A DNA stretch of 64,000 nucleotides from Thermincola carboxydiphila. GTDB taxonomy: Bacteria > Bacillota > Thermincolia > Thermincolales > UBA2595. Shown here in pieces: positions 34,366 to 44,600 of this stretch. The translations under genes were made by a program, and so were the position numbers. The notes below the pieces were generated by a model. That model did no database searches, was not told where the DNA came from, and saw nothing but the letters and a program-made list of their open reading frames with translations. Location: assembly GCA_016841045.1 (NCBI GenBank), contig JAENZX010000004.1:62001-126000 (forward strand). The letters are read 5' to 3'. Every line of letters starts with the position of its first letter. The first letter of the stretch is position 1.

Positions 34366-34797
34366 TTATCCCTCCCCTTTTTTCCTACGCTCCTTAATTA
34401 GTTGTTCAAGTCTGCTTAGCTTATTTTCATCTTTAGAACTAAGTGTGTCGACAATATGTGAAATAGCCGGCTCTGCAAAATCCTCAAGAAGTCCGTCAAG
34501 TACTTCGGATGCAACCTGGCTGGCAAATTCTTCTTCACTAATGGCCGAGGAATAGATAAATACATTTCCCCGGGATTGTTTCTTCAGCAGCTGCTTATCA
34601 GCTAAGCGGCTCATAATAGTCATAACAGTAGTATAAGCAAGGTCTTTCTCAAGCCTTAACTTTTCATAAACATTTCTGACTGTAACTTCATCTGAGTTCC
34701 AGACGATTTTCATAACATCAGCCTCTAAATCTCCCAGAACCTTTTTAAAACCCATTTTATGAGGTTTAAAATCAGAAATCCCCTTAGGTAATATCAT
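34366..34797 (-). CDS. BlaI/MecI-family transcriptional repressor
   Basis: A 143-aa winged-helix repressor. The DNA-binding domain (residues 17-85) shows LEADVMKIVW, VRNVYEKL and TTVMTIMSRLADKQLLKKQSRG, all typical of BlaI. The C-terminal dimerisation helices follow. BlaI dimers bind ACTACA-N-TGTAGT-type dyads and are inactivated through the partner protease. Matching dyads lie on its own promoter and on the promoter of the divergent cytochrome maturation operon, suggesting autoregulation and control of that operon. ATG at 34797 with GGAGGG upstream. Confidence 0.92.
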   Translation of the reverse strand: MILPKGISDFKPHKMGFKKVLGDLEADVMKIVWNSDEVTVRNVYEKLRLEKDLAYTTVMTIMSRLADKQLLKKQSRGNVFIYSSAISEEEFASQVASEVLDGLLEDFAEPAISHIVDTLSSKDENKLSRLEQLIKERRKKGEG

Positions 34798-34867
34798 CGT
34801 TTACCCTCCTTTTTCTGTAACATCAGTATTTACATTTAAATTTAACTAAAATATTAGCTTAATAAAC

Positions 34868-34915
34868 TTAACTATATATTAGTTTAATATTTATACCTAC
34901 TACAGTCAATAGTAG
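34868..34915 (-). promoter_or_regulatory. Promoter and operator-like dyads of the blaI-like gene
   Basis: Minus-strand promoter TTGACT (34909-34904), 17-nt spacer, TAAACT (34886-34881). A dyad CTACTA-N7-TAGTAG (34897-34915) covers the -35, and TTAACTA...TAGTTTAA (34868-34887) covers the -10. The placement fits autorepression, but the dyads are looser than those at 35065 and 35087. Confidence 0.5.
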
Positions 34916-35026
34916 TTTTTGCCTGTCTAACTGCTATGCACGTTGTTATTTCGCGTAATAATCAGCTTTTAGTGCCAAATATCATGTAAAATCTATTTAA
35001 ACACCAAATACGCCGGATTTTGGGGT

Positions 35027-35056
35027 TTGTGTTTCTTAGAACAAACAATATACAAT
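35027..35056 (+). promoter_or_regulatory. Candidate promoter of the cytochrome maturation operon
   Basis: TTGTGT (35027-35032), 18-nt spacer, TACAAT (35051-35056); transcription would start near 35063, right before the two BlaI-type dyads. Confidence 0.5.
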
Positions 35057-35064
35057 CATATTGC

Positions 35065-35081
35065 TACTACTCGTCGTAGTA
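35065..35081. promoter_or_regulatory. BlaI-type operator O1
   Basis: TACTAC-TCGTC-GTAGTA, a perfect 6-bp dyad with 5-nt centre, just downstream of the predicted -10. It contains the TAC/GTA arms of BlaI/MecI operators. Confidence 0.6.
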
Positions 35082-35086
35082 ATACC

Positions 35087-35101
35087 ACTACAACATGTAG
35101 T
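35087..35101. promoter_or_regulatory. BlaI-type operator O2
   Basis: ACTACA-ACA-TGTAGT, a perfect 6-bp dyad with 3-nt centre. It matches the ACTACA...TGTAGT core of known BlaI/MecI operators almost exactly and lies 5 bp from O1, allowing cooperative binding. Confidence 0.68.
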
Positions 35102-35130
35102 ACTACCTATAATAACAGGAGGTAAATTCA

Positions 35131-36120
35131 ATGAGGAAGAATTTAAAGGTATTCAGAATGATGGGGATTGCACTTATTTTAACAATGGCACTTACACTTA
35201 TCCCTTTCGCGCCACCATCATTGGCCGCACCACAAGATGATTCGTTTGAAGTGAAAACAATGGATTTACAAATCTCACCTGAATATGATGACCCACGAGT
35301 ACTGGCTGTTATATCTGGTACACTTGTGAACACTTCAGGGAAAGAATACAACGGCAGAGTATATTTTAATGTACCTAAAGATATCGAAGTAAACATGGCC
35401 TGTGAAATCGTAAATGGCTCAGGTCACTCATGCCAGCCCTATGAAATTGAGGATAAAGGCAGCTACCAGGTATTAAGCTGGAAAATAACCCGTACCATCA
35501 ACCCAGGTGAAGAATACCCCATTTGGCTGGAATATTACTACAATCCTCTAAAAGGCACACCTGACAAAACTATGACCCTTGAATATATCCCCTACTATAA
35601 GACTCTTGAGTTAAAAACTGCTATAAAAGAGCCTCTTAAATCATCTAATTTTAAACTCGATCCTGCTCCTACAACAACCGGCCAGGATGGTGAAGGATTT
35701 AAAAACGACTACTATACCTTCCAAAATATAGACTCCACGACTCCTGTCGTTATTAACATTAGTTACACCAAAAATGATAACAAACCATCAATAGAAAAAC
35801 AACAACCAGATAGTGGTCAGCAGGCAGGAACATCCGAACTTGGTACATCGGCCTGGAAGAAGCCCGAGGTCCTAATCCCGGTTATCCTTTTTGTAATCGT
35901 GTTAATCATATTCATTTTTTACTCTCTGAACTCATCCAGAAATGTATCACCCAAGGAACGTATTACACGGATCCAAAATAAATATGGAGACTCAAATACA
36001 AAGCCCAAAAAGCATGCGGGTTCAAATAACAATGCCAGTGAGAAAAAACGTATCCGTCAAATGCTGTTAGATGGCGAAATCAGTGAAGAAACTTACAGAG
36101 AGTTAATGGAAAACCTGTAG
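35131..36120 (+). CDS. Exported membrane-anchored protein, first gene of the ccm operon
   Basis: A 329-aa protein with a signal peptide (residues 1-33, ending SLAA), an external beta-rich domain (35-225), a membrane helix (about 245-266) and a cytoplasmic tail ending in a SHOCT-like helix pair (IRQMLLDGEISEETYRELMENL). I do not recognise the external domain. The same layout (signal, beta domain, helix, coiled tail) recurs in the protein at 39552, so the two may be related partners. ATG at 35131 with AGGAGG upstream. It lies directly behind the BlaI-type operators and 28 bp before ccmE; a role in heme delivery or cytochrome assembly is inferred from context only. Confidence 0.7.
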   Translation: MRKNLKVFRMMGIALILTMALTLIPFAPPSLAAPQDDSFEVKTMDLQISPEYDDPRVLAVISGTLVNTSGKEYNGRVYFNVPKDIEVNMACEIVNGSGHSCQPYEIEDKGSYQVLSWKITRTINPGEEYPIWLEYYYNPLKGTPDKTMTLEYIPYYKTLELKTAIKEPLKSSNFKLDPAPTTTGQDGEGFKNDYYTFQNIDSTTPVVINISYTKNDNKPSIEKQQPDSGQQAGTSELGTSAWKKPEVLIPVILFVIVLIIFIFYSLNSSRNVSPKERITRIQNKYGDSNTKPKKHAGSNNNASEKKRIRQMLLDGEISEETYRELMENL

Positions 36121-36148: not shown

Positions 36149-36586
36149 ATGAATAAAAACCTTCGGATGGGGATTGCCCTGATTGTGATTGTCGGGGCAA
36201 TAGGCCTCCTCATAACAAGTGGATTAAAAAATAATACCGGTTCCTACCTTACCATCGAAGAAGCCTTGGCAGTCCAAAATACTTCTGATGGTAAGTTCAT
36301 TCAGATGGAAGGAACCCTGGTTGAGGGCAGCGATACCTGGGATGCTGACAATGTAATGCTTAAATTCACATTAACCGATGAAAAAAATAACAAAATTAAT
36401 ATTTCTCATAACGGTGTAAAACCGGATAATTTCAACTCCGGATATCCCATTATAGTTGAAGGCAGATTTAACAATAACACGGAGTTTGTTGCAGAATCTA
36501 TCAAGGTAAAATGTCCTTCTAAATATGAAGCAGAAACTATAGACGAGTCCAACCAACCATACGGTAAATCGGAATCTAAACAATAA
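36149..36586 (+). CDS. ccmE: Cytochrome c maturation heme chaperone CcmE (Cys-type)
   Basis: A 145-aa protein with an N-terminal anchor helix (residues 7-25) and an OB-fold periplasmic-type domain. In Escherichia coli CcmE heme is held by His in HxxxY; here the matching site reads CPSKY (Cys122, Tyr126), the CxxxY variant known from archaea, sulfate reducers and some Gram-positives. It carries heme from CcmABCD to the CcmF/H ligase. It precedes ccmF by 16 bp. Confidence 0.9.
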   Translation: MNKNLRMGIALIVIVGAIGLLITSGLKNNTGSYLTIEEALAVQNTSDGKFIQMEGTLVEGSDTWDADNVMLKFTLTDEKNNKINISHNGVKPDNFNSGYPIIVEGRFNNNTEFVAESIKVKCPSKYEAETIDESNQPYGKSESKQ

Positions 36587-36602: not shown

Positions 36603-38564
36603 ATGGTAGACATTGGCTACGCTTCACTTTTCATTAGTTTTTTCTTGGCTATTTATTCAATTGTTGGTCAATTGCTGGGTCAAAAACTTGACAATAAAAA
36701 ATTAATAAAGAGTGCTAGAGGATCGGTACTTGCTGTTTCCATCCTCACCACATTATCTTCGCTTATACTGATCTATTTACTGGTTATTGGCGATTTCTCA
36801 GTAAAATATATTTATGACTATACCAGTTCCGACCTTCCTCTTTTGTACAAGATCTCAGCTTTATGGGCTGGAAATGCAGGATCTCTTCTGCTATGGCTCT
36901 GGGTTCTAGTTATTTACACGGTTAGTATCACTTATTCTGATAAGCTTAAGGAATTAACATCATACGCCTCTTCAATCCTTATGACAAACGCTGTATTTTT
37001 CCTTTTTATTTTAGCCTTTGTTACAAATCCTTTTGAAAAGTTCGATTACATCCCTGCCGAGGGTGCGGGTATGAATCCCATGCTGCAGAACTTTGGCATG
37101 ATAATTCATCCGGTCACTACCTACCTGGGATACGTAGGTTTTGCCATACCCTTTGCCTTTGCCATGGCAGCTTTAATTATAAAAAATACTGATGACCTAT
37201 GGATAAAAATAACCCGTAAATGGACAATCCTCGCCTGGCTGTTCCTTACCCTCGGCAACCTTTACGGTGCCCAATGGGCATATGTTGAGTTAGGGTGGGG
37301 CGGTTACTGGGCCTGGGACCCTGTTGAGAATGCTTCTTTCATTCCCTGGCTTACAGGTAGTGCCTTTTTACACTCGGTAATGATACAGGAACGAAAAAAC
37401 ATGCTGAAAATTTGGAACGTTTCCCTCATTACCTTAACTTTTCTCCTAACACTCTTTGGAACCTTTCTTGTAAGAAGTGGTATCCTTACTTCAGTTCACG
37501 CATTCGGAAATTCTGACCTGGGTATGTTCTTCCTGGTATTTACCGGTATAGTTTTTGTCGCTTCCTTCTGGCTCATTATCGACAGACTTAATATGCTTAA
37601 AGAAACTCGAGAATTTGAATCCTACGTCTCTAAAGAAAGCAGTTTCCTTCTGAATAACCTTATCCTGGTGGGAATAGCATTCGCAACATTCTTTGGGACT
37701 ATCTACCCATTGATTGGTGAAGCAGTCACAGGTTCCCGGCCTACAGTTTCAATTCCCTATTTTAACGCTGTTAACGCACCCCTTGGTCTCTTAATGGTTG
37801 CATTAATGGGTATTTGTCCCCTTATCGCATGGCGTAAATCCGATATGAAAAGTCTTCGTGACAATTTCCTTGTTCCCGTAGCTCTTTCCCTGGTTTTTAT
37901 GGTAACTGCATATATCCTTGGGCTGAGAAAAATTTACGCTCTTATTGCATTTACCACTGTATTCTTTGTGACCGCATCAACCCTAATCGAATTTATAAAG
38001 GGAACCAGGGTACGGATGAAAATGACCGGAGAGAATCCTGTTACAGCCCTATTCAAGCTTATGTTTAAAAACAGGAGACGCTACGGAGGATATATCATTC
38101 ACTTGGGTCTGATAATGCTGATTATGGGTGTTATTGGTTCTAATGCTTACGAAAAGGTTGAACAGAAAACGATCGATTTTGGTGAAACAATCACAATCGA
38201 GGACTACACTCTGACCTACACTAATTTAGCGGAACGTAAAGAAGGTAAAAACGATGTGGTTTATGCAGATCTGTCTGTAACAAAAGGTGGTAAAGAATTT
38301 GGTATAGTTCAGCCTGAAAAAGTCTTTTACCCAACCCACCCCAACCCTTCCACAGAAGTTGGCATAAAAGGAAGTCTTAAAGAAGACCTTTATGTTATTC
38401 TGGCTGGTTGGGATAAAGAAGGCAAAGCTACTTTTAAAGTATTGGTTAATCCTTTGGTTGCCTGGCTTTGGATAGGTGGATATGTAATGGTTATAGGGAC
38501 TATATTTGCACTCTGGCCGGGACGCGGAGCTGAAGTTGGACCAAAATATGTTAGGGGGAGCTGA
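36603..38564 (+). CDS. ccmF: Heme lyase CcmF/NrfE-type
   Basis: A 653-aa multi-spanning membrane protein with about 14 helices. The tryptophan-rich WWD heme-handling segment is GWGGYWAWDPVENASF (near residues 230-247), and conserved His residues flank it (for example IIHPVTTYLGYVG). The C-terminal periplasmic domain (residues 520-630) and last helix are present. It attaches heme to apocytochrome CxxCH sites. The length is usual for the family. ATG at 36603 lies 5 nt after GGGGG. Confidence 0.95.
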   Translation: MVDIGYASLFISFFLAIYSIVGQLLGQKLDNKKLIKSARGSVLAVSILTTLSSLILIYLLVIGDFSVKYIYDYTSSDLPLLYKISALWAGNAGSLLLWLWVLVIYTVSITYSDKLKELTSYASSILMTNAVFFLFILAFVTNPFEKFDYIPAEGAGMNPMLQNFGMIIHPVTTYLGYVGFAIPFAFAMAALIIKNTDDLWIKITRKWTILAWLFLTLGNLYGAQWAYVELGWGGYWAWDPVENASFIPWLTGSAFLHSVMIQERKNMLKIWNVSLITLTFLLTLFGTFLVRSGILTSVHAFGNSDLGMFFLVFTGIVFVASFWLIIDRLNMLKETREFESYVSKESSFLLNNLILVGIAFATFFGTIYPLIGEAVTGSRPTVSIPYFNAVNAPLGLLMVALMGICPLIAWRKSDMKSLRDNFLVPVALSLVFMVTAYILGLRKIYALIAFTTVFFVTASTLIEFIKGTRVRMKMTGENPVTALFKLMFKNRRRYGGYIIHLGLIMLIMGVIGSNAYEKVEQKTIDFGETITIEDYTLTYTNLAERKEGKNDVVYADLSVTKGGKEFGIVQPEKVFYPTHPNPSTEVGIKGSLKEDLYVILAGWDKEGKATFKVLVNPLVAWLWIGGYVMVIGTIFALWPGRGAEVGPKYVRGS

Positions 38565-38566
38565 AA

Positions 38567-39067
38567 TTGATTATGAAACTGAATTCTATTAAATTCCCCC
38601 TTGTATTAATCCTGACTGCTTTATTTATACTGTCATCAGTGCCGGTTTTGGCGGTCGAAGTTGATAAAAACCTGCAGAAGGAAATCGAAGACAGCCTGGT
38701 TTGCCAGGACGGATGTGGTATGATTCTCGCAGCATGTGAGAACCAAACCGCAGAATATATGCGTAAAATCGTAGTTGACCGTCTCGCCAAAGGGCAGACC
38801 AAGGATGAAATAATGGGTTATTTTGTTGACATCTACGGCGTAAAAGTACTGGCCGCCCCTCCCGCAGAAGGTTTCAATATAACGGCATGGGTGACACCCT
38901 TTGTAGCATTAATCCTGGGGGGAGTTCTGGTGTATCTTGTCCTTGATAAATGGGTCTTTCAGGCAAGACTTGAAAGAATGGACCAGGAAGATGAACAAAA
39001 TAAAAAGGAAATAGATCTTTCCGAGTATGAAGATAAACTTGATACCGAATTAAAAAAATACCTCTAG
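38567..39067 (+). CDS. ccmH: Cytochrome c maturation protein CcmH (thiol oxidoreductase type)
   Basis: A 166-aa protein with a signal peptide (to about residue 29), a helical external domain with Cys46, Cys50 and Cys57 (VCQDGCGMILAAC), and a C-terminal membrane helix (residues 108-127). Classic CcmH has LRCxxC; here the first two cysteines are four apart (CxxxC), and a third follows, an unusual arrangement. The protein reduces apocytochrome disulfides or presents them to CcmF. TTG at 38567 is taken as start (GGGGGAG at 6 nt); ATG 38573 is an alternative. Confidence 0.85.
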   Translation: MIMKLNSIKFPLVLILTALFILSSVPVLAVEVDKNLQKEIEDSLVCQDGCGMILAACENQTAEYMRKIVVDRLAKGQTKDEIMGYFVDIYGVKVLAAPPAEGFNITAWVTPFVALILGGVLVYLVLDKWVFQARLERMDQEDEQNKKEIDLSEYEDKLDTELKKYL

Positions 39068-39109: not shown

Positions 39110-39532
39110 ATGATTGAGGGCATTTCACTGTTTATCATCCTGTTGGTGGTAGCTTATTTCGTACTTGTCCCGTTAATTGTAAACAAACCGGAAAAAAATT
39201 CCCGGCTTTTGGATCAGCTGGTTGAAGATGATGATGAAGATACTCTCTCAAAGAACAAGGAAGCGCTGTTTACGACTATCAATGAAATTGAGTTTGATTA
39301 CAGCATGAATAAGCTTTCTGAAGACGATTATAATCAGCTTAAAAATCAGTACCGTCAACAGGCGCTAAAACTTCTGCACGAGGAGGACGAACTGGAGCTT
39401 GAAACTACAGCTCAATCTCCAGGCCCAGTATCTCCAAATAAAACAGATAAAGCAGATAAAACAGATATTGAAAAAGAAATAGAACGTGAACTTGCGGCTT
39501 TGCGTAAGCAAGTGGTTGTGGAAAGTGAGTAA
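39110..39532 (+). CDS. CcmI-like small membrane protein
   Basis: A 140-aa protein with one N-terminal membrane helix (residues 4-24) and an acidic, coiled-coil cytoplasmic or external segment. The stretch ALFTTINEIEFDYSMNKLSEDDYNQLKNQYRQQALKLL resembles the N-terminal part of CcmI, but the TPR domain of full CcmI is absent. CcmI holds apocytochrome for CcmF/H, so position and form fit an abbreviated version. AGGAGG precedes the ATG. Confidence is limited by the low information content of coiled coils. Confidence 0.6.
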   Translation: MIEGISLFIILLVVAYFVLVPLIVNKPEKNSRLLDQLVEDDDEDTLSKNKEALFTTINEIEFDYSMNKLSEDDYNQLKNQYRQQALKLLHEEDELELETTAQSPGPVSPNKTDKADKTDIEKEIERELAALRKQVVVESE

Positions 39533-39551
39533 AGTTCGGGAGGAATCATTG

Positions 39552-40595
39552 ATGAAACTGAAAAACAAGGTAATTTCTTTAATCCTTACAGTTATGTTTA
39601 TATTTACGATGACCGGTGCTGCCATAGCTGCTGATTCTGGTTCAGAAAGTCAGCAAACCAATAATGCTGTACCTGCAAAACCTAGTGGAACAGGGATAAA
39701 GATTGACCTTCACCATGTACTTTTTGAAGCCACTGTAGGTACTGATGTCGCGGTTAGGGAGACATTAAAAGTCAACAACACCTCCAATAGTATCTATTCA
39801 GGAGAAGAAACTGCCGATGGAAATAAAAAAGTAGTATTAAAAGTTTCTCTTCCCGACAGCTATAAAGACCTAAAGGTCACCGGGATCTCTCAAGACTCTT
39901 ATACCATAACACCTGAAGGTCTGGTTACCACCTCCCCTCTTAACCCGGGAGTAAGCCAGATTAGCATCACATATCTGTTTAACAGTGATGATGTTTTTTA
40001 TAAAACATTAAATTACCCGACAGAAACAATGTACTTTTTGGCCCCCAAAGGGCAGCTCCGCCTTAAAGGTGAAGTTGGAGTTATCGACTATGGAATTCAA
40101 AACTTACAGGGTTCAGAATATCACGTGTTATTAGGAAACCAATTCAGTCCCAGCCAAAAAATTGCGCTGACCATGGATCCTACCAGGGTAGGCCAGGGCT
40201 ACAGCAGCTCCAGTTCCGGTTTTCACAGCGCTTCCCACCTGCAAAAGTGGTATGAATCCCCACTAGCCTCAACTAATCCACATATGTGGGTAGCAGTAAC
40301 TATAATCCTCTTTTTTGCAGCAGTGGCTGTCACAGGTTACTACCTTAAGAGAAAATATTTACTTCAGAAGGAAAAAGAAACAGAGGAACGGCTGGCAGGA
40401 ATGCTGGACAATCTGGTCATCAGGCAAAAAAGGCTTTTGGCCAAAATAAATGCCCTTGACCGGCAGAATGACGCCGGAGAAATTAGTTCAGCCGACTATA
40501 CTAGTCTCAGGGAACAGTATATGGACAAACTTGTAAAAATCAAGCTCAAAATCAAAGAACTGGAAGCCCTTGAGAATGCGGGTTTGACAAGCTAG
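39552..40595 (+). CDS. Exported membrane-anchored protein of the ccm operon
   Basis: A 347-aa protein with signal peptide (residues 1-27, ending AIAA), external beta-rich domain (40-225), a membrane helix (about 244-265) and a long cytoplasmic coiled coil (275-345). It resembles the operon's first gene product in layout, and both have N/T-rich external strands. The family is not recognised. ATG 39552 is preferred over the longer frame from 39486, which would overlap the previous gene and lose the signal peptide; GGGAGG lies upstream. Confidence 0.68.
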   Translation: MKLKNKVISLILTVMFIFTMTGAAIAADSGSESQQTNNAVPAKPSGTGIKIDLHHVLFEATVGTDVAVRETLKVNNTSNSIYSGEETADGNKKVVLKVSLPDSYKDLKVTGISQDSYTITPEGLVTTSPLNPGVSQISITYLFNSDDVFYKTLNYPTETMYFLAPKGQLRLKGEVGVIDYGIQNLQGSEYHVLLGNQFSPSQKIALTMDPTRVGQGYSSSSSGFHSASHLQKWYESPLASTNPHMWVAVTIILFFAAVAVTGYYLKRKYLLQKEKETEERLAGMLDNLVIRQKRLLAKINALDRQNDAGEISSADYTSLREQYMDKLVKIKLKIKELEALENAGLTS

Positions 40596-40619
40596 AGCCC
40601 AAGAACAGGAGTGGTAGCG

Positions 40620-41324
40620 ATGATTAATGCAATGGGAATATCAAAAACCATCGGCCATAAGACTATTCTTCATAACATCCATCTGCATATAAAACCCGGC
40701 CAATTTGTTACAGTTTTTGGTCCTAATGGTGCCGGCAAGAGCACATTGCTCAAAATTCTTTCCCTGGTAACCAAACCCTCCAAGGGAGATTTAGTTATAG
40801 ACGGAAAGAATGCAAATAATTTTGCAGATGAGATCAGGAAAAAAATAGGTGTAATCTCCCATAACACATTCCTTAATGAGAACCTCACTGCAAAAGAAAA
40901 CCTCTTGTTCTACGGCAAAATGTACGGTGTTACCGATTTAAAGGATAGGATTTTCGATGTACTACACCAAGTTGGGCTTGAACTATCAATGAATGAACCT
41001 GTCCGGACCTTCTCACGGGGCATGCAGCAAAGGTTGGCAATTGCCCGCTCGATACTACATGACCCCGCCATCTTATTTCTTGATGAACCATATACAGGTT
41101 TAGACCCTCACGCTATCCAAATTCTTAACAATGTACTTGCCCAACTAAATGCTGATGAACGAACGATATTCCTAATAACACACAATTTTGAAGAAGGAGT
41201 AAATTTGAGCGACAGAATATTATTTATTGTCAACGGTAAAATCCGTTATGATGGTGAGAAAACAGCAATGAGCAAAGATGACCTTAAAAATCTCTATCTT
41301 ATGAAAGTTAAGGATACGGCTTGA
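40620..41324 (+). CDS. ccmA: ABC transporter ATPase CcmA
   Basis: A 234-aa ABC ATPase. Walker A is GPNGAGKST, the signature FSRGMQQR and Walker B AILFLDEPYTGLD. With CcmB and CcmC it powers release of heme-loaded CcmE. The start is set at ATG 40620 (AGGAG at 8 nt) rather than the upstream GTG 40611. The stop overlaps the ccmB start by one base. Confidence 0.93.
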   Translation: MINAMGISKTIGHKTILHNIHLHIKPGQFVTVFGPNGAGKSTLLKILSLVTKPSKGDLVIDGKNANNFADEIRKKIGVISHNTFLNENLTAKENLLFYGKMYGVTDLKDRIFDVLHQVGLELSMNEPVRTFSRGMQQRLAIARSILHDPAILFLDEPYTGLDPHAIQILNNVLAQLNADERTIFLITHNFEEGVNLSDRILFIVNGKIRYDGEKTAMSKDDLKNLYLMKVKDTA

Positions 41325-42004
41325 TGAACTTTTTTTCCGGTATCAGTGCAATCATATGGAAGGATCTCAAAGCAGAGTTCCGGACAAAACAGTTGTTAAG
41401 CTCAATGCTCATCTTTGCTGTACTCACCCTGATTATATTTGTTTTTGCTTTTGATCCCACTAAGGATGTCGTGAGGCAGGTGTTCCCCGGAATGATCTGG
41501 GTCTGCATTGTTTTTGCAGGTGTTCTGGGTGTTAACCGTTCTTTCGTTTCAGAGAAGCAGAATGACTGTCTGACAGGTATACTCCTTGCTCCTATCAACC
41601 GTACTGCCATTTACTACGGTAAAACAGGAGGCAACCTTATTTATATGGCAATCGTAGAAGTCATTGCCCTGCCGCTGTTTGCAGTTCTCTTTAACTATAA
41701 CATTCCTGCTGCCTCAATTTTCCCCCTGATTCTTGTCGTTTTTCTCGGAACCCTGGGATTCATTGCAGTAGGAACTTTTCTGGCAGCCCTGACCTCAAAT
41801 GCACGCAGCAGCGAGATACTACTGCCAATCATCCTGTTCCCTGTAATGGTACCGGTGATACTTAGTGCTGTCCAGGCAACAGGGGCAATTCTCTCAGGAG
41901 CACAAACGGCTGACTGGGTATCATGGCTTAAGATTTTAACTGCTTTTGATGTAATATTCCTTACCGTCCCCGTCTTACTCTTTGAATATGTTCTGGAGGT
42001 ATAA
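41324..42004 (+). CDS. ccmB: Heme exporter subunit CcmB
   Basis: A 226-aa membrane protein with six predicted helices. The N-terminal cytoplasmic stretch IIWKDLKAEFRTKQLLSSM is characteristic of CcmB and the length is usual. It forms the membrane part of the CcmAB ABC module. ATG 41324 overlaps the ccmA stop, giving tight coupling; ccmC follows in 3 bp. Confidence 0.92.
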   Translation: MNFFSGISAIIWKDLKAEFRTKQLLSSMLIFAVLTLIIFVFAFDPTKDVVRQVFPGMIWVCIVFAGVLGVNRSFVSEKQNDCLTGILLAPINRTAIYYGKTGGNLIYMAIVEVIALPLFAVLFNYNIPAASIFPLILVVFLGTLGFIAVGTFLAALTSNARSSEILLPIILFPVMVPVILSAVQATGAILSGAQTADWVSWLKILTAFDVIFLTVPVLLFEYVLEV

Positions 42005-42007
42005 AAC

Positions 42008-42709
42008 ATGACAATTCATAACATAACCTCTAAAGGGAGGTTTCACAATATACTGGCCTGGGCTACTTTTATAGCGGTATCAGTTTCAATCTATATGATT
42101 TTCATGTGGGTGCCGAATGAAAAGGTTCAGGGCCCGGTTTCAAAGATAATCTACTTCCATATTTCATCAGCATGGCTGGCATTTTTCGCCTTCTTTTTAG
42201 TTATGGTCTGTAGTGTTGCATATCTGAAAACCAGGGATTTAAAGTGGGATGTTATAGCTTACTCTTCTGCAGAAATTGGGGTCCTGTTCACAACAATCGT
42301 ACTGGTAACAGGCCCAATATGGGGACGAGCTTCATGGAATGCTTGGTGGACGTGGGACCACAGGCTTACAACCACCCTTATTCTATGGTTTATATATATC
42401 GCCTACCTTATGATCAGGTCATCCTTTAGTGAAGAAGAGAAAAAAGCAAGGTTTTCTGCAGTATTCGGTATAATAGGTTTTATTGATGTCCCCATAGTAT
42501 GGATGTCTATTAGGTGGTGGCGCACTATTCACCCTACTGTTGTCAGTTCAGGCGGGTTTGCTATGGACCCGAGAATGGTCGCAACACTTCTGGTAAGCCT
42601 GTTAGCATTTACCCTTCTATTTTTCTATCTGCTCCAAAAAGGTATTTTTATTCTGAATATAAAAAACCAAACCCAAATAATAAAACAAAAAATCACAGAA
42701 ATTCGTTAA
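42008..42709 (+). CDS. ccmC: Heme-handling protein CcmC
   Basis: A 233-aa protein with six membrane helices and the WWD motif (ASWNAWWTWDHRLTT), flanked by conserved His residues (IYFHISSAW and HPTVV). CcmC delivers heme to CcmE. The order ccmA-B-C-D matches the Escherichia coli operon. The C-terminal tail is Lys/Gln-rich. Confidence 0.95.
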   Translation: MTIHNITSKGRFHNILAWATFIAVSVSIYMIFMWVPNEKVQGPVSKIIYFHISSAWLAFFAFFLVMVCSVAYLKTRDLKWDVIAYSSAEIGVLFTTIVLVTGPIWGRASWNAWWTWDHRLTTTLILWFIYIAYLMIRSSFSEEEKKARFSAVFGIIGFIDVPIVWMSIRWWRTIHPTVVSSGGFAMDPRMVATLLVSLLAFTLLFFYLLQKGIFILNIKNQTQIIKQKITEIR

Positions 42710-42886: not shown

Positions 42887-43435
42887 GTGACTGATAAAAG
42901 ATTTAAGATTTCCGGAATCATCCTGTTCTTGGCTGCTTTTTTTGTAATAGCAATACTTCTGTATAATTCATCAGGCAAAAATACAAAGCCTTTTAATGAA
43001 GGTTCGTTCCCCAAAAACCTTCAGGGACTAACACTTCAACAAGTAATAACTGGTCCCCAGGCACTGGGTATGATAAGCAAACTTCATGGAACCGATATAA
43101 CTATAAAGCAGGGGTATATAGCTTCTTATGCTGGCCCTCAGGGTCAGATAATGATATGGGTATCTGAATCAGATAATGTACCAGACGCTATAGAACTATT
43201 TGATGTAATGGATAAAAAGATTGCAGCAGTAAATGAGCCAGGGCAGGACAGTAATTCCGGACAACCTCCATTTACTAACCGCCGTGAATTAAAAGAAAAT
43301 GGTATTAATGTAATTGCGGTTGAAGGAATGGGAATGGAAAACTATTATTATCAGATTGATGACAAGGTATACTGGATTGCGGCGGGAGGGGTTACCCCTA
43401 TTGATGCCCTCAGGGAAGTTATGAACAAGATCTAA
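42887..43435 (+). CDS. Membrane-anchored hypothetical protein of the ccm operon
   Basis: A 182-aa protein with an N-terminal membrane helix (residues 8-27) and an external mixed alpha/beta domain ending YYQIDDKVYWIAAGGVTP. No heme motif or cysteine is present. The start is GTG at 42887 with GGGAGG upstream. I do not recognise the family. It lies between ccmD and the DUF2318 gene, so a role in cytochrome or metal handling is possible. Confidence 0.6.
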   Translation: MTDKRFKISGIILFLAAFFVIAILLYNSSGKNTKPFNEGSFPKNLQGLTLQQVITGPQALGMISKLHGTDITIKQGYIASYAGPQGQIMIWVSESDNVPDAIELFDVMDKKIAAVNEPGQDSNSGQPPFTNRRELKENGINVIAVEGMGMENYYYQIDDKVYWIAAGGVTPIDALREVMNKI

Positions 43436-43475: not shown

Positions 43476-44111
43476 ATGGATGAAAGCAGAGAAGCTAAAC
43501 GTGCCAAGTTCCTCGAAGACCAGGCCCTGGTAAGAAAAAAGAGAAATAAGAAAATTATTGGATTTGCAGCAGTTTTAATCTTTGTCGGAGTAGCTTTATT
43601 CTCATATTTCACCAGGCCCTATACAAACCCCAAGGGCGGCAACTTTAACATCGGAGATGTACAGAATTATAAAAATAAGAAAATTGATATGACAGATGTT
43701 ACCCCTGAAATTAAAAACGGTAAAGTCATGATCTCTTTAGATACATTAAGAGAAAAGAAGATTGTATATACTGAGTACAGGGAGGTAAAGAAAAAGTTTT
43801 ATGGTGATTTTGATTACCTTCCCCTTAATGCCTTTATAACTCCGGCAGGAAGAGTAGTCCTTGCCTCAAGTATTTGTGAGCCATGTTATGGAACCAGGTT
43901 TCATATTGACAACACCGACCTTGTATGCGAGGCCTGCGGCACCCGCTGGCGGCTTGATGACTTAATGGGCATCGGAGGAGGCTGTGTAAACTATCCTCCC
44001 GAAGAATTTAAATATAAAGTTGAAAACAACAAATTAGTCATAGATGAAAACATGCTTAAGAACTGGAAACCCCGGTATTTCACTGATGAAATGGAATCAC
44101 AAAGCTCTTAA
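43476..44111 (+). CDS. DUF2318/FtrD-like Fe-S membrane protein
   Basis: A 211-aa protein with an N-terminal helix (residues 25-45) and an external domain with cysteines in SSICEPCYG, LVCEACGTRW and GGGCVNYP, the pattern of DUF2318 proteins that carry an iron-sulfur site and occur with metal transport (FtrD). The five Cys are conserved in order. A redox or metal-reduction role near the membrane is inferred. It is followed 42 bp later by a cupredoxin, suggesting a metal-redox pair. Confidence 0.78.
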   Translation: MDESREAKRAKFLEDQALVRKKRNKKIIGFAAVLIFVGVALFSYFTRPYTNPKGGNFNIGDVQNYKNKKIDMTDVTPEIKNGKVMISLDTLREKKIVYTEYREVKKKFYGDFDYLPLNAFITPAGRVVLASSICEPCYGTRFHIDNTDLVCEACGTRWRLDDLMGIGGGCVNYPPEEFKYKVENNKLVIDENMLKNWKPRYFTDEMESQSS

Positions 44112-44153: not shown

Positions 44154-44600
44154 ATGAGTAAAAATTCCAAAAAAGGCACTAGAAAAGCAGCTTCCAGAAG
44201 CGGCACAAATAAGAATCCCATTATTATCATGAGTGTAATTCTGGTTGGACTGTTTATATGGATCATGTCGCAATTATCCGGTCCAGGCACCCCCTTGGCA
44301 ACAAGTAACCAACCAGTCACTGCTCCGGTGGTCAACGGAGTTCAGATGCTTTCAATGAACCTGACCGCTGCAGGATATGAACCTAACAATATTACTTTGA
44401 AGAAAGATATTCCTGTACAGATAAATACTAATGCAACTGCGGACGCAGGCTGTGTCAGAGGGTTGATGATACCTGATTTTGACATAAATAAAGCCCTTGA
44501 TGTCGGACAGGACTCCTTTGTCTTTATACCTAATAAGACCGGGAATTTTGAATTTTCCTGTCAGATGCGGATGTCTACAGGGACCATCAATATCGTTTAG
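44154..44600 (+). CDS. Membrane-anchored cupredoxin-like protein
   Basis: A 148-aa protein with an N-terminal anchor helix (residues 23-41) and a beta-sandwich of cupredoxin type (60-148). The C-terminal FEFSCQMRMSTG carries Cys and Met ligands, and AGCVRGLMIPDF an upstream Cys; the usual His ligand is not evident, so copper binding may be atypical. It could pass electrons or copper to cytochromes or oxidases. Last gene of the operon, before a strong terminator. Confidence 0.78.
   Translation: MSKNSKKGTRKAASRSGTNKNPIIIMSVILVGLFIWIMSQLSGPGTPLATSNQPVTAPVVNGVQMLSMNLTAAGYEPNNITLKKDIPVQINTNATADAGCVRGLMIPDFDINKALDVGQDSFVFIPNKTGNFEFSCQMRMSTGTINIV

Follow-up and report, generated by a model that had tools for sequence, protein, structure and literature searches.

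The window, by which we mean the whole 64-kb stretch of DNA analyzed, encodes a BlaI-family repressor and an M56 (BlaR1-type) membrane zinc protease whose genes apparently form an operon, divergent from a cytochrome c maturation (ccm) operon that starts at position 35131 (Table 1). The original prediction of a BlaI/BlaR1-like pair in this arrangement is borne out by the Pfam matches (PF03965 and PF05569) and by the gene coordinates. The Ccm (system I) gene set, CcmA, CcmB, CcmC, CcmE, CcmF, and CcmH, is present in full in the window operon. The product of the first gene, orf329, matched no Pfam or NCBIfam model, and its AF2 model (pLDDT 84.7) loosely resembles M1 aminopeptidase and OST domains in fold; its conserved tail reads RQMLLDGxISEETY.

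Table 1. Genes, promoters, and predicted operators of the blaI-M56/ccm locus in the window
Feature	Coordinates	Strand	Basis or remark
M56 (BlaR1-type) membrane zinc protease, 324 aa	33388..34362	(-)	Pfam PF05569, E 1e-23
BlaI-family repressor, 143 aa, without cysteine	34366..34797	(-)	Pfam PF03965 Penicillinase_R, E 9e-29
blaI promoter: -35 TTGACT (34909-34904), 17 nt, -10 TAAACT	34881..34909	(-)	
blaI auto-operator (predicted): TACTACAGTCAATAGTA (forward), TACTATTGACTGTAGTA (blaI strand)	34898..34914	(-)	1 mismatch
ccm promoter: -35 TTGTGT (35027-35032), -10 TATACA (35049-35054) or TACAAT (35051-35056)	35027..35056	(+)	inferred, alignment with relatives
ccm operator 1 (predicted): TACTACTCGTCGTAGTA	35065..35081	(+)	0 mismatches to TACTAC-N5-GTAGTA
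ccm operator 2 (predicted): CACTACAACATGTAGTA	35086..35102	(+)	1 mismatch to TACTAC-N5-GTAGTA
orf329, ccm operon gene 1; predicted exoplasmic β-sandwich, TM helix, conserved cytoplasmic tail	35131..36120	(+)	AF2
CcmE	36149..36586	(+)	PF03100, E 3e-23
CcmF	36603..38564	(+)	PF16327, PF01578
CcmH	38567..39067	(+)	PF03918
orf140, small membrane protein, CcmI position (inferred)	39110..39532	(+)	syntenic in relatives; no Pfam match
orf369, conserved ccm-operon protein	39486..40595	(+)	start codon uncertain; ORF as listed overlaps orf140
CcmA (ABC ATPase)	40611..41324	(+)	PF00005 and place ahead of ccmB
CcmB	41321..42004	(+)	PF03379
CcmC	42008..42709	(+)	PF01578
orf182	42887..43435	(+)	kept in ccm operon of relatives
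FtrD-like (DUF2318) membrane protein	43476..44111	(+)	PF10080, E 1e-17
Membrane-anchored cupredoxin-like protein, last ccm-operon gene	44154..44600	(+)	PF13473, E 3e-10

Predicted operators between blaI and orf329

Three sites with no more than one mismatch to TACTAC-N5-GTAGTA occur in the 64-kb window, all within the 333 bp that separate blaI from orf329. Order-1 Markov shuffles of the window gave a chance rate of approximately 0.065 sites per 64 kb, and two dyads within 250 bp were found in 0 of 400 such shuffles. Two of the sites, ccm operators 1 and 2, are the dyads originally described as lying right after the ccm promoter; the dyads are real, and the promoter is inferred. The second dyad, first written as ACTACA-N3-TGTAGT, occupies the same 17-bp TACTAC-N5-GTAGTA frame, and the two are 21 bp, or two helical turns, apart. 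The ccm promoter was not called by a simple sigma-70 scan, but in the alignment of relatives the order TTGTTC or TTGTAC, 17 nt, TATAAT, 7 to 9 nt, and dyad recurs at ccm. The window dyads start ∼8 to 10 bp past the putative -10, a geometry that would be expected of a repressor blocking initiation.

The dyad claimed for the blaI promoter is likewise real, and the -35 box TTGACT lies inside it because the dyad on the blaI strand reads TACTATTGACTGTAGTA. Operators at blaI read TACTATTG(A/C)..GTAGTA and are kept upstream of blaI in relatives; the arms of the dyads are nearly invariant, and the spacers are free at ccm and ftrD but constrained at blaI, where the TTG of the -35 is kept. The dyads could also be read not as DNA operators but as RNA hairpins in a 5′ leader that would act through attenuation or through the stability of the RNA, given that both ccm dyads fall in the presumed leader and, judging by their sequence, could fold with a 6-bp stem and a 5-nt loop. 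We rejected this highly improbable reading because the blaI dyad covers the -35 of blaI, ahead of where the transcript begins, the distances and numbers of sites vary widely, and the arms do not show compensating changes. Across the organism's own genome, 130 dyad sites with no more than two mismatches were counted against 283 control sites, and 7 TACTAY-N5-RTAGTA sites against 7 control sites; these counts are not above control, and thus only placement and conservation are informative.

Conservation of the dyads and linkage of blaI-M56 to ccm

A sample of 399 Bacillota genomes was searched with orf329 only, to avoid selection on BlaI. As the first gene of a ccm operon, orf329 was detected in 30 of these genomes, and a dyad is present within 400 bp upstream of it in 17 of the 30 loci, 10 of the 17 being in genomes outside the taxonomic order of the window. 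Each of 89 scrambled half-sites was found at no more than 1 of the 30 loci, and in an exhaustive palindrome search of the orf329 loci, TACTAC with a spacer of 5 ranked first (11 loci), with the next unrelated palindrome at 2. A lack of conserved dyads in relatives had been named beforehand as evidence that would count against the original prediction; the opposite was seen, and apart from the 17 Bacillota loci, dyads precede ccm in all other Thermincolales ccm operons of the window type (L034-L036, L038, L039, and L137). The upstream regions of these Thermincolales operons contain two or more dyads with 0 to 2 mismatches and unrelated spacers. A second, divergent ccm operon (L037; CcmF 57%) has no dyads and adjoins a two-component system.

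The M56 type of the window was found in 15 of the 17 dyad-bearing genomes versus 4 of the 13 dyad-less genomes (Fisher p = 0.002, which is optimistic since the genomes are related), and the two dyad-bearing genomes without it are 61 to 63% complete. Four genomes (G011, G118, G129, and G132) encode the protease and have no dyad near orf329; in G118 a dyad is found at about -590 from orf329, and in G132 orf329 is directly behind a MacB permease gene. The same blaI-M56 pair was found beside ccm in related genomes, at a distance of ∼13 kb or less in most dyad-bearing orf329/ccm loci, and ccm directly adjoins the pair in metagenome-assembled genomes (MAGs) of Thermincola, Desulfosporosinus, and Dethiobacter. 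Distant Bacillota commonly show the arrangement (copA, copZ)-dyad-orf329-ccmEFH...ABC-orf182-dyad-blaI-M56-ftrD-macB-ABC-macB. Conservation of the dyads and linkage of the two gene groups support the idea that the pair would control ccm. In two Thermincola MAGs (L034:12654 and L035:7134), ccm and blaI-M56 are separated by genes resembling those for cysteine synthase and for the synthesis of sulfur amino acids, with dyads near. Another locus (L213, genome G004) has no CcmE match, yet blaI-M56-ftrD is found there together with a cupredoxin-like gene and densely clustered dyads.

The most widespread unit is blaI-M56-ftrD-macB, which also occurs without ccm and is carried by Carboxydocella thermautotrophica. 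A FetABCD/Fls-like module (DUF2318 protein plus MacB-like ABC transporter) is linked to blaI-M56 in a second locus of the own genome (contig C47, L027) and in relatives; of such a module, the window encodes the DUF2318 protein alone. The FetA DUF2318 protein and FetBCD ABC transporter of Campylobacter fetMP-fetABCDEF resemble ftrD-macB-ABC-macB, and FetABCD has been proposed to relay extracytoplasmic reducing power, but a Fur site is found there and no BlaI-M56 pair is described (PMC10783030). The C47 locus (L027:5996-11838) encodes a second blaI-M56 pair, behind which come two dyads and then ftrD-macB-ABC-macB. Its repressor, BlaI2, is 70% identical to the window BlaI, with the same recognition helix and its own dyads, and its M56 protein likewise ends in cysteine. 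The window operators are therefore not assignable to one repressor, and BlaI2 could act at them too. It could be argued from the spread of the ftrD-macB unit, and from BlaI2, that the pair serves mainly the ftrD-macB/ABC (FetABCD-like) operon, with the window ccm dyads bound by BlaI2 and the adjacent BlaI redundant. We consider this unlikely: where ccm adjoins the pair, both ccm and blaI carry dyads, and in the window the same dyad is on the adjacent blaI promoter. The promoter of a further BlaI with an M56 neighbor in the own genome (contig C27, L001) is covered by a dyad with a different spacer, ACTAC-N4-GTAGT, consistent with separate BlaI specificities.

The repressor and the BlaR1-like protease

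The window BlaI scores 100.6 bits against Penicillinase_R PF03965 (cut-off 22.6), and its recognition helix, AYTTVMTIM, is identical across the relatives in the group. By sequence, its closest solved relative is Mycobacterium tuberculosis BlaI (Rv1846c; 2g9w), with the similar helix AYTTVMAVL. That protein regulates bioenergetic genes, including the ATP synthase operon (PMC12565901), and we found no link to ccm for it in the literature examined. CopY/TcrY belong to the same BlaI superfamily, but the window BlaI falls below the NCBIfam CopY cut-off (TIGR02698; 74.5 versus 121.95 bits), lacks the C-terminal cysteine metal-binding motif, and has a partner protease; since it contains no cysteine, the repressor cannot have a metal site of the CopY kind. 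BlaI_0696 of Clostridium thermocellum, which was studied by DAP-seq and EMSA, binds inverted repeats five nucleotides apart, with paired dyads at targets and autoregulation (PMC8457756), all features predicted here. It differs in its half-site, GTCTAT, and in its targets, which were read as a beta-lactam response (PMC8457756).

The M56 protein contains HEXXH at 194-198, has two cysteines (C70 and C85) in its TM2-TM3 loop, and ends in C324; M1, H194, E195, H198, D239, K258, R287, and C324 are invariant in the alignment. The best Foldseek PDB matches of its AF2 model (pLDDT 85.5) are Staphylococcus aureus BlaR1 cryo-EM structures. The protein corresponds to BlaR1 residues 6-323 only, a core with four TM helices that ends after TM4. 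The C-terminal penicillin-binding sensor domain is absent, as had been predicted, and the score against the NCBIfam model blaR1_generic is 45.6 versus a cut-off of 400. Among aligned M56 homologs, the terminal cysteine is present in 31 of 31, C85 in 30 of 31, and C70 in 25 of 31. Over all loci, nearly all complete high-scoring M56 ORFs have the terminal cysteine and none of the low-scoring M56 relatives do; the exceptions are L055, which ends in VCQF, and ORFs that are disrupted or cut by a locus end. Positively charged residues are scarce in the TM2-TM3 loop but abundant in the loops TM1-TM2 and post-TM3, in line with an exoplasmic position of C70, C85, and C324. As judged from sequence, the protein is a BlaR1 core stopping after TM4 and ending in an invariant cysteine, a form that is new here.

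The locus resembles BlaI-BlaR1 and MecI-MecR1 of staphylococci and Bacillus licheniformis in having a winged-helix repressor, an adjacent M56 zinc protease, and dyads on its own and target promoters. It differs from them in the conserved cysteine end after TM4 where the penicillin-binding sensor would follow, in its putative targets, ccm and redox/iron genes, and in the 5-nt operator spacer. Despite this family resemblance, the chance that it is an ordinary beta-lactam response system next to ccm by accident is negligible, and we rejected that reading: the M56 protein has no penicillin-binding domain and falls far under the cut-offs of the NCBIfam BlaR1 models, and linkage to ccm and ftrD is kept across the phylum.

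A proposed derepression circuit and its signal

We consider it probable that blaI-M56, here and in many anaerobic Bacillota, is a BlaI/BlaR1-type derepression circuit serving redox and heme chemistry outside the cytoplasm, in which BlaI represses ccm and itself and M56 removes BlaI. In a step that the sequence supports strongly, BlaI dimers would bind TACTAC-N5-GTAGTA on the blaI -35 and, at the ccm promoter, between approximately +1 and +40, repressing both, and would also repress ftrD-macB-ABC-macB and, in some species, lgt, the OsmC-like gene, and copper-cluster genes. By homology to BlaR1, activated M56 would cleave or remove BlaI and thereby derepress the regulon.

In this circuit the regulon would extend beyond ccm to ftrD-macB/ABC, lgt, an OsmC-like gene, and others; its members come from pattern searches and are given among the matches listed. 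In Thermincola relatives (L215, L216, L218, and L230), dyads lie ahead of lgt and/or an OsmC-like gene, which suggests that these are additional members. Three dyads among the matches listed (contig C55, L024:7532, 16654, and 19715) surround genes for CopA, two CsoR-type repressors, an FtrD-like protein, an ICMT-like methyltransferase, and lgt in the own genome. No obvious cytochromes were detected outside ccm, blaI, and ftrD in the regulon loci examined. A dyad that precedes a membrane TPR gene by 54 bp (contig C49, L029:8888; CcmH/CycH TPR domain-like, CcmI-like) was rejected as a target site, being unconserved in homologs, and sites near the multiheme genes of C23 and in C20 were set aside as probably due to chance.

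With the penicillin sensor replaced by outward-facing cysteines, the signal is likely to be other than antibiotics, and the putative targets (ccm, ftrD-macB/ABC, nearby copper genes, lgt, and OsmC-like) suggest redox, heme, or copper outside the cytoplasm. The exoplasmic cysteines (C85, C324, and usually C70) may functionally stand in for the penicillin-binding sensor, a replacement to which we give about an even chance; the stimulus would be thiol oxidation, Cu(I), or heme, such that ccm is made when exoplasmic redox or heme handling needs it. A copper-specific signal is a tentative alternative, in which Cu(I) would be bound by the exoplasmic cysteines, and derepression of ccm, the CopA/CopZ neighbors, and ftrD-macB would safeguard or restore cytochrome maturation under copper stress. 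The pair would then correspond in function to CopY, with metal sensing shifted into the protease. Cu(I) is readily bound by two or three thiolates, copA/copZ-like genes are directly ahead of the dyad-ccm unit in many Bacillota, own-genome dyads lie near the CopA/CsoR cluster, and the ccm operon ends in a cupredoxin-like gene. However, the CsoR-type copper repressors present would already cover CopA, and many linked clusters (L058-L063) have no copper genes in the flanks examined. We favor direct sensing through the cysteines, with thiol oxidation, Cu(I), and heme left unranked. The broader proposition, that BlaR1-like proteases with an exoplasmic cysteine pair or triad, including the C-terminal cysteine, sense envelope thiol redox, heme, or copper throughout the phylum and control ccm via BlaI degradation, could equally well prove right or wrong.

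We found no paper in the open-access literature linking BlaI-family regulators with cytochrome c maturation, and transcriptional control of ccm in Gram-positive anaerobes, including genera such as Thermincola that perform extracellular electron transfer, seems little described. The conserved operator and the protease make this a circuit open to direct testing. The circuit would tie ccm to a FetABCD-like redox module and to copper genes, and a minimal cysteine "sensor," if true, would mean that BlaR1-type proteolytic signaling is not tied to antibiotics.
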